A stretch of DNA of 45,906 nt, taken from positions 1-45,906 of the forward strand of contig VMSU01000223.1 of NCBI GenBank assembly GCA_013792005.1, read 5' to 3'. Position numbers and translations under genes: made by a program. The DNA is from Desulfobulbaceae bacterium (GTDB lineage Bacteria > Desulfobacterota > Desulfobulbia > Desulfobulbales > VMSU01). Shown here piece after piece: positions 41,115 through 45,717 of the stretch. The notes below the pieces were generated by a model. It had not been told where the DNA came from. It saw nothing but the letters and a program-made list of their open reading frames with translations, and searched no databases. Positions within the stretch are counted from its first letter, which is position 1. The number at the start of each line of letters is the position of its first letter.

Positions 41115-41420
41115 TTGCTCCTGTATAGTGATTGAGGACGTCAGTACGCATCAGAACTTTACCAAATCTCGATCCTAAAATCTGGCTTTGCCTGTAGCAT
41201 GAGTTGCAAAGAAAATTGCTGGGATAATGCCCCATCTGAAGGTTTTCTCCATCCACTTTTTACCGAATTGACCCATCACGAACGCTATGAGACCAGGGCC
41301 GAGGCGAAAAGTAATGTTTTCGAATACATTAAGGTCTTTTACAATCGCCAGAGGCGTCACGCAGCTACAAGGTATTTAAGTCCAGCTGTCCATGAGGCGG
41401 CTTATCAAAATGCTGCGTAA
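41115..41420 (+). pseudogene. Decayed IS3-family transposase, C-terminal part
   Basis: The frame reads LLLYSD, a TGA stop, then GRQYASELYQ, continuing through CSMSCKENCWDNAPSEGF and FYNRQRRHAA. This matches the integrase core of IS3-type transposases from the SDRGxQYAS Asp motif to the catalytic Glu region (normally CWDNAPMESF). The TGA at 41133 replaces the expected Arg of SDRG, and the N-terminal half and OrfA are missing. A further in-frame TGA lies at 41112. It is a dead remnant, 52 bases upstream of the haem-motif kinase. Confidence 0.85.
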
Positions 41421-41472: not shown

Positions 41473-43017
41473 ATGAGAATATGGACCTCCATCCTTGGCA
41501 AATATACCTGTATCGCCGCGACCATTCTGCTGCTGCTCAGCAGCATGGTCATCTCCACTTTTTATCTGACCGAAGAGATTCAGGGCGAGGCAATGCGCAT
41601 TAACCTGGCAGGCCGCCAGCGCATGCATGTCTTTCACCTGGCCCTCCATGCCCATTTCCTGTTGAACAGTGACGACGTGATGCTGGGATCACTTCATCGC
41701 GCGGGATTAAAAAAGGCGCTTGGTGAATACGAACAAACGTTGCTTGGCCTGAGGACGGGAAGCCCCGAGTGTGATGTCACCCCGTCTTGTAAAGCATCAA
41801 CACATGATGTACTGAATAGACAGCTGGACAGTCTGATCACCCTGTGGAACGAGAAACAAAAGCCCCAGTTGCTGCAAATCATTGCTGATCCGATTCAAGT
41901 CTGGGAAGAGGGCGAAAAACGCTGTCACGGCTGTCATGACGCATTTATACCTCATTTTAAGAAGGTAGACGATTTTGTCTTTGCCCTGAGCACACACAAT
42001 GAGCAGGTGATACAACGATTCAATGTGCTGCGCTTCGGCATCTTGGTGGTATCAGCGCTTGCAGCGATTGCGATGGCTATTTTTATCAAGCAACAGATGA
42101 TTCTGCCAGTGCAAGAATTGTATGAGGCAACGGTTCGTTTGGAAAATGGAGATTTTTCCTGCGCGCTGGCGCCAAGGACCAATGACGAAATCGGCACCCT
42201 GGCCCTGGCCTTTAACCGGATGTCCACAACTCTTGCCCAAAGTTTCACTGAAAAAGAGGCCCTGGTCCAGCAGCGCACGGCGGAACTGCAAACTGCCAAT
42301 GAAGATTTAAGGACTTTTGCTTACACGGTTTCTCATGACCTGCGAGCGCCCTTACGCGCGATACAGGGGTTTGCAGAGGCCATCCGCGAGGATGGGCAAA
42401 GCCTTGATCTCCGGATCACTGAGCACCTAACTAACATCACCGCCGCCGCTGAGTTCATGGACAAGTTGATCCTCGATCTCCTGTCATACAGCCGAATATC
42501 CTACAAGGATATCCACATTGACCAGGTCGATACCGGTCAGCTATTCAAGGAGGTCGTGCAGGACTTGTCTTTTGAGATACAAAAAGTCGAAGGACAAGTA
42601 ACCATTGAAGGATGCCTGCCAGTGGTCATGGCCAATCATGGCATCCTGACCCAGATCACCATGAATCTACTCAGTAATGCCATCAAGTATGTCAAGGCTG
42701 GGACACCTCCCAGGATACAGGTATGGGCTCAGCACAATGGCGACAAGGTACGCCTGTTTGTCAAGGATAACGGAATTGGCATTGCCCCAGAAGACCAACA
42801 CCGGATTTTCGATGTCTTTGTCCGGCTGCACGGGATGGACAGTTATCCGGGAACAGGGATTGGACTAGCTACCGTCCACAGGGGAATTGAACGGCTGGGC
42901 GGCAGTTGCGGGGTAGAATCAATTCCAAGTCAGGGCAGCACGTTCTGGCTGGAGTTGTCTCCTGTTGATCCAGCTTGGCTGTCTATGGCGAATGATTCGC
43001 TTTGCACAGAACATTAA
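41473..43017 (+). CDS. Membrane sensor histidine kinase with a periplasmic CxxCH haem motif
   Basis: This 514-residue kinase has two membrane helices (about 13-33 and 187-206) around a periplasmic helical domain. That domain begins like NarX/PilJ-type sensors (MRINLAGRQRMHVFH) and contains CHGCH at 151-155, the attachment motif for c-type haem. Cytoplasmic parts are HAMP (about 207-260), a coiled coil, HisKA with VSHDLRAPL (His288) and HATPase (about 390-510; NLLSNAIKY, DNGIGIAPED, GTGIGLA). It probably senses redox or a haem ligand. AGGAG lies upstream; a GTG at 41470 is an alternative start with better spacing. The receiver-hybrid kinase begins 12 bases after it. Confidence 0.87.
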   Translation: MRIWTSILGKYTCIAATILLLLSSMVISTFYLTEEIQGEAMRINLAGRQRMHVFHLALHAHFLLNSDDVMLGSLHRAGLKKALGEYEQTLLGLRTGSPECDVTPSCKASTHDVLNRQLDSLITLWNEKQKPQLLQIIADPIQVWEEGEKRCHGCHDAFIPHFKKVDDFVFALSTHNEQVIQRFNVLRFGILVVSALAAIAMAIFIKQQMILPVQELYEATVRLENGDFSCALAPRTNDEIGTLALAFNRMSTTLAQSFTEKEALVQQRTAELQTANEDLRTFAYTVSHDLRAPLRAIQGFAEAIREDGQSLDLRITEHLTNITAAAEFMDKLILDLLSYSRISYKDIHIDQVDTGQLFKEVVQDLSFEIQKVEGQVTIEGCLPVVMANHGILTQITMNLLSNAIKYVKAGTPPRIQVWAQHNGDKVRLFVKDNGIGIAPEDQHRIFDVFVRLHGMDSYPGTGIGLATVHRGIERLGGSCGVESIPSQGSTFWLELSPVDPAWLSMANDSLCTEH

Positions 43018-43029
43018 GGAGGTAGTGGG

Positions 43030-45717
43030 ATGAAGATACTTCTGATTGATGATAATCGTTTCGATCGTGCCCTGGTGGTGCGGGAAATACACAAGGAGTT
43101 TCCCGAAGTGTCCGTCGATGAAGTCCTGAATGCAGTCGATCTGGAAGCGGCCCTGACCGCCGCTGACTTTGATTTAGTCATCACCGACTACCAACTACAA
43201 TGGACCACCGGCATGCACGTGTTACATTCGGTAAAGAACAAGTTCCCGGAACTCCCTGTGATCATGTTCACTGGCACCGGCAATGAAGTCATTGCCGTAG
43301 AGTCCATGAAGGCTGGGCTGGATGATTATGTCATCAAATCAGCAAAACATTTTGTCCGCTTGCCTTTTAGCATTGCGCAGGCGCTGGAAAGAGGCCGGCT
43401 TCGTCTGGCCGAAAAGAAATCTGCTGCCACCATAGCCCGCCTGCATACCCACCGTGAACTAATTCTCGATTCAGTTGCGGATGGCATCCTGGGAGTAGAC
43501 CAGCAAGGTCGCCACAGTTTTGCCAATCCAGCAGCCCAGCGGATGCTCGGTTACGCCCTGGATGAACTCCTCGGACAGGAAAGCCATGCTCTCTGGCATC
43601 ATACCAATAAGGATGGATCACCAAACCCCATCGATACCTGTGTCGTCCATAGCTCAATACGGGAAGAACAACCCTTTTCAGGAAAAGATTTGTTCTGGCG
43701 TAAAGATGGCACAGACTTTCTGGCGGAATATACCAGCGCCCCAATTTACGAAAATGACAGGTGCACGGGTGCAGTAATAATCTTCCGTGACATTACTGAA
43801 CGAGAAAAAGCCCAGGAAGAGCTACGCAGGTATCGACAAATCGTCTCGGCCTCGGAGGAGCACATGGCCTTTATAGGATCAGATTGTGTCTTCCATGCCG
43901 TCAATGACGCCTATCTTAGGGCCTATAACTGGACTCGTGACACAGTTATTAACCGCCCTGTTGCCGATCTGTATGCCAACAACAGGAAATTTGCAACAAT
44001 GACAGCAAATCTCAATCAGGCGATGCAAGGGACTCCGGTCCGTTATCGAGACTGGTTTGATTTCCCCAGCCAGAGTAGGCGTTACATGGATGTTGCGTAT
44101 TATCCCTACAAGACTGATAACGGCATGATTTCCGGTGTGGTGGTCAATTCACGGGACATAACCGATCTCAAAGGACAGGAGGATGCCTTGCGCTTGGCGG
44201 AACAGGAGTGGAAGCATACCTTTGACTCCATTTCCGATCTTGTTTCAGTCCATGACGCCAATTATAGGTTTTTGAAAGTCAACAAGACCCTTGCCGATTT
44301 TGTGGGGAAACCAGCCGAGGAATTGATCGGCAAGCACTGCTATGAAGTCTTTCATGCCCTCTCCTACCCATGGCCGGAGTGTCCACACCAGAGGGCCCTG
44401 AACAAGGGGTGCCCTGCAACCATCGAGATTGACGACCCGCATATTGGTCATCCAATGCTGGTCACCGTCTCCCCGATTATCGATGTGCAAGGACGTGTGG
44501 TGGCAACGGTCCATATCGCCAAAGACATCACCGAACTCAAAAAGGCTGAGCAGGAACGCCTTGACTTGCAAACTCAACTTTCTCAGGCCCAGAAAATGGA
44601 GTGTATCGGCCAGTTGGTTGGCGGAGTGGTCCATGACTTTAACAATTTTTTGAGCGCTATTATCGGGTTCAGTGAATTGATTCTCATGAAACATCCCGGC
44701 CCATCAGAACTCCACGAGAACATCACCCAAATAAAGAGTGCAGGATTAAAATCAGCGGCATTAGTGCGGCAACTCCTTGCCTTCAGCCGTAAGCAGGTAT
44801 CTGAAATGGCGCCTGTCCGGCTGGACTCCCTACTGGAAAATCTTGGGAAAATGCTTCACCGTCTTCTTGGAGAGGAAATTATCCTCGATTTCGACCTGAA
44901 CTCTGGAGATAGCGTTATTGTTGCTGATTCTGTTCAGATCGAACAGGTCATCATGAATCTTGTGGTCAACGCCCGTGATGCAATGCCTGCCGGGGGGCGT
45001 ATCCACATTGGGACGACATCTCTTATCGTTGGCAGAGAAGAAGCTGCACCGCTTCCGGGTCCAGGTGAAGGAAAATATGTGCAGCTCACCGTTACCGACA
45101 CCGGCAATGGCATAAAACCAGAAGACAGACCGCGACTTTTTGAACCGTTCTTCACGACCAAAGGAATCGGTAAAGGAACTGGTATGGGGTTGGCAACGGT
45201 TTACAACATTGTTTCCCAGCATAAAGGATGGGTCGACTTCGAAAGTGAAGTCGGAGTAGGAACCGTTTTCCGAATACTTCTGCCCAGGGATAGCCAACAG
45301 CAACAGAATATTGACGAGCAAAGAACTGAAATGGCATTGCCTAGCGGCAATGAGACAATTTTGTTAGTGGATGATGAACCGACAATCAGAACAGTTATCC
45401 GTAAATCCTTGAATTCTTTAGGGTATCAGGTCCTGGAAGCCGGAAGCGTCAGGGAAGCGCTCAATATTTTCGATCAGCATCTTGAGGCAATCGATCTCTT
45501 GATTACAGATGTAATTATGCCGGCACAACGAGGGACTGTACTTGCTGAACTCGTCAAGAACCGTTCGCAGCGGATCAAAGTCCTTTTTGTTTCAGGATAT
45601 TCAGATGAGAGTATTGACCCGGATGGCATATTGCAACCGGGGGTTAATTTTTTAAAAAAACCGATCACCATAAAAAAGTTGAGTGAAATGGTTCGTCACC
45701 TGCTCGACATCGACTAA
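43030..45717 (+). CDS. Hybrid kinase: REC-PAS-PAS-PAS-HisKA-HATPase-REC
   Basis: This soluble 895-residue protein has an N-terminal receiver (about 1-125, Asp53 in LVITDYQ), three PAS domains (about 145-260, 265-385, 390-505; the third with the Cys-rich PWPECPHQRALNKGC stretch), HisKA with VVHDFNNFLSAIIGF (about 535), HATPase (about 640-755; NLVVNARDAMPAGG, GTGMGLATVY) and a C-terminal receiver (about 775-890, LLITDVIMPAQRG). AAGGAGGT precedes the ATG. The gene follows the haem-motif kinase by 12 bases, so its N-terminal receiver is the likely phosphorylation target of that kinase. There is no DNA-binding output domain. Confidence 0.9.
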   Translation: MKILLIDDNRFDRALVVREIHKEFPEVSVDEVLNAVDLEAALTAADFDLVITDYQLQWTTGMHVLHSVKNKFPELPVIMFTGTGNEVIAVESMKAGLDDYVIKSAKHFVRLPFSIAQALERGRLRLAEKKSAATIARLHTHRELILDSVADGILGVDQQGRHSFANPAAQRMLGYALDELLGQESHALWHHTNKDGSPNPIDTCVVHSSIREEQPFSGKDLFWRKDGTDFLAEYTSAPIYENDRCTGAVIIFRDITEREKAQEELRRYRQIVSASEEHMAFIGSDCVFHAVNDAYLRAYNWTRDTVINRPVADLYANNRKFATMTANLNQAMQGTPVRYRDWFDFPSQSRRYMDVAYYPYKTDNGMISGVVVNSRDITDLKGQEDALRLAEQEWKHTFDSISDLVSVHDANYRFLKVNKTLADFVGKPAEELIGKHCYEVFHALSYPWPECPHQRALNKGCPATIEIDDPHIGHPMLVTVSPIIDVQGRVVATVHIAKDITELKKAEQERLDLQTQLSQAQKMECIGQLVGGVVHDFNNFLSAIIGFSELILMKHPGPSELHENITQIKSAGLKSAALVRQLLAFSRKQVSEMAPVRLDSLLENLGKMLHRLLGEEIILDFDLNSGDSVIVADSVQIEQVIMNLVVNARDAMPAGGRIHIGTTSLIVGREEAAPLPGPGEGKYVQLTVTDTGNGIKPEDRPRLFEPFFTTKGIGKGTGMGLATVYNIVSQHKGWVDFESEVGVGTVFRILLPRDSQQQQNIDEQRTEMALPSGNETILLVDDEPTIRTVIRKSLNSLGYQVLEAGSVREALNIFDQHLEAIDLLITDVIMPAQRGTVLAELVKNRSQRIKVLFVSGYSDESIDPDGILQPGVNFLKKPITIKKLSEMVRHLLDID

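Follow-up and report, generated by a model that had tools for sequence, protein, structure and literature searches.

A putative haem c site in a NarX/PilJ-type sensor kinase points to a possible new type of haem sensor for redox state or a gas

Haem c sensors have so far been described in PAS/Cache folds and in a PHY-like protein. Those named in excerpts of PMC8199190, PMC3831638 and PMC8396549 have PAS-like folds, except for the PHY-like MsmS; the same parts of PMC8396549 describe DcrA and MsmS (MA4561) as haem c sensors of the PAS and PHY-like kinds and give His144 and Met60 as the haem ligands of GSU0935. In the sCache_heme domains, according to sections of PMC12889525, the motif lies in an insertion within a Cache (alpha/beta) fold, an inserted cytochrome fragment has been proposed as its origin, and the signalling members bind NO in a slowly reversible manner. 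Four-helix bundles are likewise widespread as periplasmic sensors, and NarQ is a well-studied model of how they signal. Designed haem-C-binding maquettes are reported in excerpts of PMC6227378 and other designed four-helix haem proteins also exist, which suggests, by analogy, that this fold can hold haem. In the open-access literature (most subscription papers lie outside this scope), no haem c in a NarX/PilJ-type or other natural four-helix sensor was among the matches listed.

The locus studied here lies in a 45,906-nucleotide stretch of DNA from a Desulfobulbaceae bacterium (contig VMSU01000223.1), referred to below as the window, and its features are collected in Table 1. The start codon of the kinase, ATG 41473, is preceded by AGGAG, and an in-frame ATG at 41392 is an alternative start that makes the ORF 27 residues longer. 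Residues 31-132 match PilJ (PF13675) with 29.8 bits against a cut-off of 26.6, and 16 of the 19 CxxCH-containing relatives scanned also match PilJ at E up to 0.001; HisKA is matched by 17 of these 19 proteins and an HD domain by one. The short stretch INLAGRQRM resembles a P-box. Two more cysteines, residues 100 and 106 (window 41770-41772 and 41788-41790), lie in the loop between helices 2 and 3 and may form a disulfide; a cysteine at column 100 occurs in only 3 of the 21 CxxCH rows of the family alignment, namely the window kinase's own small group. Upstream, window 41151-41419 (+) holds an integrase-core fragment (PF13333 rve_2, 41.6 bits), presumably IS3-like. Only some 50 bases separate its end from the start of the kinase, which thus adjoins a mobile-element remnant.

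Table 1. Features of the kinase locus and of the paralogue in the same genome (window positions unless a locus is named)
Feature	Position	Strand	Description or basis
Sensor histidine kinase, 514 aa	41473..43017	+	PilJ/NarX-type sensor, HAMP, HisKA, HATPase_c
First membrane helix, residues 14-32	41512..41568	+	Hydropathy; helix 7-65 in AlphaFold2 model
P-box-like stretch INLAGRQRM with Arg50, residues 43-51	41599..41625	+	Sequence
His61, proposed distal haem ligand	41653..41655	+	Conservation in alignment
CHGCH, residues 151-155: proposed haem c attachment (Cys151, Cys154) and proximal ligand (His155)	41923..41937	+	Sequence, conservation
Second membrane helix, residues 185-203	42025..42081	+	Hydropathy; helix 149-224 in AlphaFold2 model
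HAMP domain, residues 208-255	42094..42237	+	Pfam
HisKA domain, residues 279-343	42307..42501	+	Pfam
HATPase_c domain, residues 392-496	42646..42960	+	Pfam
Hybrid kinase, proposed partner	43030..45717	+	895 residues; receiver, three PAS, HisKA, HATPase_c, receiver
Paralogue in the window's genome, CxxCH kinase with CAACH	L136:8679-12434	-	

Counted from ATG 41473, the letters TGTCACGGCTGTCAT at window 41923-41937 encode CHGCH as residues 151-155. The motif is bracketed by the two hydropathy peaks at residues 14-32 and 185-203, and the predicted topology places it in the periplasm; sequence and hydropathy thus agree with the original prediction, which had put a haem c motif between two membrane helices. 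From the kinase's own composition (9 Cys, 19 His), about 0.006 CxxCH motifs would be expected by chance. Conservation is the stronger evidence against a chance motif, which it rules out.

To place the motif in its family, a sensor-region query was run against 58 genomes of the window's order. It found close matches in G002 (61% identity), G044 (34%) and G016 (35%), besides a single paralogue within the genome of the window itself (32%). These four all carry CxxCH, which is absent from the weaker PilJ-type matches inspected. Scanning genome contigs recovered 10 loci, seven with CxxCH (three of them the G002, G016 and G044 copies) and three without (L030-L032). Alignment A2, which included HAMP, matched 339 of the phylum's 395 sampled genomes; beyond the best rows these matches came mostly from its HAMP end, and the 30 loci among the matches listed entered the pool. 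Alignment A3, without HAMP, was used afterwards. The pooled loci form 98 distinct rows, of which 86 span the motif, CxxCH being present in 21 and absent from 65; two pieces of L072, which has an internal stop codon, and 10 rows not covering the motif, including L103 with Met at column 61, were dropped.

The family is patchy in the window's order, where 4 of 257 genomes have a match at E up to 1e-20, and within the window's genus it is present in G000 and G002 and absent from G001 and G003. In the phylum of L028 (Nitrospiraceae), 52 of the 395 sampled genomes have a match at the same threshold, 13 of them with a CxxCH copy. One more, G624, has CxxCH after a stop codon: its locus L072 (G624:C62:62897-63496) contains a TAA inside the sensor, just before the motif, and is either a broken gene or an assembly error. 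The acidobacterial sample gave one match, 63 residues long, in 199 genomes, and none of 299 genomes from the phylum of L032 (Proteobacteria) matched. The family is therefore now seen mainly in Nitrospirota, plus a few Desulfobulbales-like genomes. A Kiritimatiellae contig, L024 (JAQULY010000629.1, 3136 bases), shares its sample name with L023 and clusters on the tree with the window kinase and its congener; it may be wrongly binned.

Residues C151, C154, H155 and A157 are invariant in all 21 CxxCH rows of the 86-row alignment, with pairwise identities among these rows as low as 0.25 (median 0.37). On a rapidly built LG+G4 tree that left the motif columns blank, the same rows fall on one side of a branch with SH-aLRT 94. 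The sensor regions with the motif hold on average 2.43 cysteines, compared with 0.23 in those without. The genome also contains four PF01578 cytochrome c assembly matches, all over the cut-off. The conservation of both cysteines, which the original prediction had named as a point to check, is thus seen throughout the CxxCH rows, and judged from this conservation the domain very probably binds haem c.

The same check extended to the distal ligand, for which residue 61 is a plausible candidate. When columns 30-189 were scanned, column 61 showed the strongest His/Met excess after H155: 16 of the 21 CxxCH rows have His (12) or Met (4) there and five have another residue, whereas 6 of the 65 rows without CxxCH have His. 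Around the window kinase, every one of the 11 rows in its part of the clade carries His61 (W, the window kinase itself, with L010, L024, L011, L012, L019, L063, L027, L073, L077 and L078), and the other 10 have Met (4), Lys (2), or His, Tyr, Arg and Ala (one each). Since all CxxCH rows share one origin, the association of column 61 with the motif counts as one contrast, and a paired test has no power. The second-strongest excess is at column 75, at the start of helix 2 (10/21 CxxCH rows against 1/65), and its histidine could be the distal ligand in some rows; as a general stand-in for column 61 it fails, because the five rows lacking His or Met at 61 also lack His at 75. From this pattern it seems fairly likely that His61 ligates the haem iron, and ligation by the His155/His61 pair is probable. 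One arrangement, a haem c ligated by His155 together with His61 (the latter at least in the window's group), accounts for all of the following: the three invariant residues, the exchange of His for Met, the periplasmic place and the assembly genes.

Predicted structures gave a view of how these residues may be arranged. The AlphaFold2 model of the window kinase sensor has a mean pLDDT of 84.9, lower (63) in residues 141-150, and is all-helical except for single-residue bridges, with helices at 7-65, 69-95, 111-138 and 149-224. H61 lies near the end of helix 1, and CxxCH occupies the first turns of helix 4. In the model of L027 (pLDDT 88.1), helix 1 again spans 7-65, and the motif (146-150) sits in a helix at 138-154 that is followed by a kink and a further helix at 157-219. 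The six best Foldseek matches are all NarQ (E 4.5e-5 to 1.4e-4), and NarQ is also the top match in VIA, with Z 16.5 over 222 residues; MCP2201, also a four-helix sensor, comes within 1 of this, at 15.8 over 144. A sequence search of the PDB with the sensor alone gave no match at E up to 10. Together with the PilJ match, this NarQ-like predicted fold bears out the assignment of the periplasmic region to the NarX/PilJ type. Where a bundle runs up and down in this way, helix 1 would finish and helix 4 begin at one and the same pole, the one far from the membrane.

These observations suggest that the protein, with its putative haem, is a sensor of redox state or of a gas, and that haem sensors of this type have not been described before. 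In the mechanism that we propose, a NarQ-like periplasmic four-helix bundle would carry one haem c on Cys151 and Cys154, with His155 as the proximal ligand and His61 on helix 1 as the distal one, so that the haem would tie helix 1 to helix 4 at the membrane-distal end. This tie would be loosened when the iron is reduced, or when His61 gives way to a ligand such as NO. The two membrane helices and then HAMP would relay the resulting shift between helices 1 and 4, and the kinase would respond by phosphorylating the receiver of the adjacent hybrid. Here the haem attachment, the ligation by His61, the ligation switch and the partner are all inferred, and we regard the explanation as a whole as somewhat favoured. 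As for the partner, the original prediction had joined the kinase and the downstream hybrid into a redox- or gas-responsive pair. The hybrid starts 12 bases after the kinase stop, and the kinase-hybrid order is kept in L023, from one other genome of the genus; these two points, adjacency and shared order, support the putative pairing. No DNA-binding domain is among the hybrid's Pfam matches, so it would be only one step of a longer relay.

Of the alternatives, the one that survives best holds that the protein is a redox sensor only, in which a six-coordinate His/His haem c (His/Met in some relatives) reports the redox state of periplasmic electron carriers and binds no gas. If H61 ligates, protein ligands on both sides would leave no free site, and electron-transfer genes lie beside three relatives: L141 (the same place as L026) is preceded by genes for a tetrahaem cytochrome, an FeS protein and NrfD, followed by a sigma-54 regulator; L148 lies downstream of genes for a molybdopterin oxidoreductase, an FeS protein and a nitrate-reductase-delta-type chaperone; and L150 has an octahaem cytochrome and a DUF6448 protein upstream. 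Among other relatives, L140 has DsbB, DsbA and thioredoxin-like genes upstream, L149 lies near an NADH:quinone oxidoreductase-type subunit, L139 near pyruvate:ferredoxin oxidoreductase, and L143 is followed by genes for ferrochelatase and a flavin amine-oxidase-type protein; next to the kinases of the remaining CxxCH neighbourhoods, as next to the window kinase, no redox genes were recognised by eye. Redox or haem genes near several relatives also speak for the haem c reading as a whole, and their apparent lack beside the window kinase speaks against it. The 19 control neighbourhoods were compared for five query proteins and CxxCH-rich ORFs only, and an octahaem ORF occurs in two of them (L156, L160), so redox neighbours are not special to CxxCH rows. 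Moreover, a six-coordinate haem can still bind NO through loss of a ligand, and the paralogue in the window's genome adjoins a RIC-type gene and lies near a flavodiiron NO reductase, both of which count against a purely redox role. We therefore consider this reading quite possible, yet somewhat short of even.

The paralogue's surroundings bring in the second alternative, an NO sensor in which NO displaces the distal ligand. This paralogue is preceded on the same strand by a DUF6448 gene and an adjoining gene of the RIC type for iron-sulfur repair, and the same 18 kb also encodes a NorV-type flavodiiron protein and a multihaem cytochrome. The RIC protein matches ScdA_N over the Pfam cut-off and TIGR03652 with 140.5 bits, under the cut-off of 204.7; the flavodiiron protein scores 722 bits against NF008887 (cut-off 635). 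The displacement would be as proposed for the signalling haem-c Cache domains, whose slow, reversible NO binding in the sections of PMC12889525 cited above favours the idea. Against it, phmmer found neither RIC nor flavodiiron proteins in 18 CxxCH neighbourhoods (one of them L144, whose sensor has a stop codon) and 19 control neighbourhoods, and none was seen beside the window kinase; as a rule for the family, these neighbours are rejected by their absence from all 37 neighbourhoods searched. NO is thus one candidate signal, raised by the paralogue context, and a dedicated NO sensor appears rather unlikely.

Two side observations concern the neighbourhoods. DUF6448 (PF20046) lies upstream of CxxCH-sensor genes at three places, L136:13563-14279 (-), L024:2-301 (+) and L150:7329-7940 (+), and our search of the open-access literature found no paper on it. 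In two of these proteins a signal-peptide-like stretch has HCDT close to its end, a sequence that may resemble the nickel hook of Ni-superoxide dismutase. Near the L151 kinase, a protoglobin-PsiE protein (PF11563 and PF06146) is encoded two ORFs downstream, at L151:3425-4330 (-), and is possibly a second gas sensor.

A haem-free protein, whose cysteines and histidines instead make up a thiol switch or a site for a metal such as zinc, is improbable. The three motif residues and a second His could build such a site; but a thiol switch needs no invariant H155, the Met found at column 61 in four rows fits haem, as Met is a ligand suited to haem and not to zinc, and the genome encodes cytochrome c assembly proteins. 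Most improbable is a chiefly nitrate or nitrite sensor that has retained the NarX/NarQ site and carries the haem as an extra: NarQ heads the Foldseek matches and 19 of the 21 CxxCH rows conserve Arg50, but Arg50 is as common without CxxCH (58/65) and is replaced by His in 2 of the 21, the NarX model score is far too low (given below), and no nitrate genes were recognised by eye beside the window kinase.

Returning to the haem c reading, we compared rows with and without the motif to see how it arose. The segment corresponding to residues 150-183 is 34 residues long in 20 of the 21 CxxCH rows, the remaining one (L083) ending at a contig end, and in 48 of the 65 rows without CxxCH; over the shorter stretch 150-160, 59 of these 65 have equal length. 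At columns 151, 154 and 155, rows without the motif most often have L-Y-D (9) or L-Y-N (7), and the three nearest to the CxxCH rows (L081, L082, L085) have Ser, Leu and Leu at column 61. The equal lengths indicate that the motif, as far as the alignment tells, seems to have arisen through exchange in place and not through insertion. We may be looking at a second, independent origin of extracytoplasmic haem-c sensors, an idea that we think has rather more for it than against it: in a NarX/PilJ bundle, three residues at the start of helix 4 would have been exchanged (typically L-x-x-Y-D/N to C-x-x-C-H) and a ligand gained on helix 1, with no insert, and the haem would act as a redox- or NO-opened staple joining both of the helices that carry the transmembrane signal. 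If this is true, a haem sensor would be shown to arise from a few residue exchanges alone; and, should haem link helices 1 and 4, this fold would offer signalling that could be triggered through the potential and monitored spectroscopically.

Compared with known systems, the window kinase is most similar to the NarX/NarQ and PilJ-type (PF13675) sensors, with which it shares the PilJ match, the nearest predicted fold (NarQ), Arg50, two membrane helices and HAMP, and from which it differs in CxxCH, His61 and the HisKA core. It was rejected as a NarX nitrate sensor kinase equivalog, since it scores 92.7 bits against NF007896, far under the cut-off of 578. Cytochrome c' (PF01322) offers another likeness, as a four-helix bundle whose last helix bears CxxCH and whose first bears the distal residue, but it is a soluble protein and not a sensor kinase domain. 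The kinase does not match PF01322 at E up to 1, nor do any of the 19 relatives scanned, and cytochrome c' is not among the best 50 rows of either fold list (Foldseek, VIA), an absence that excludes nothing. DcrA and MsmS (MA4561) resemble the window kinase in having haem c in signalling proteins and are set apart by their descriptions. The sCache_heme/Tll0287-like/DUF3365 proteins (PF11845; GSU0582, GSU0935) likewise have a periplasmic CxxCH domain before HAMP and signalling modules. Membership in PF11845 was rejected, with no match at E up to 1 in the kinase and none among the families listed for the 19 relatives. In contrast to sCache_heme, the window sensor is predicted to be an all-helical bundle, whose motif appears to have come through exchange in place.
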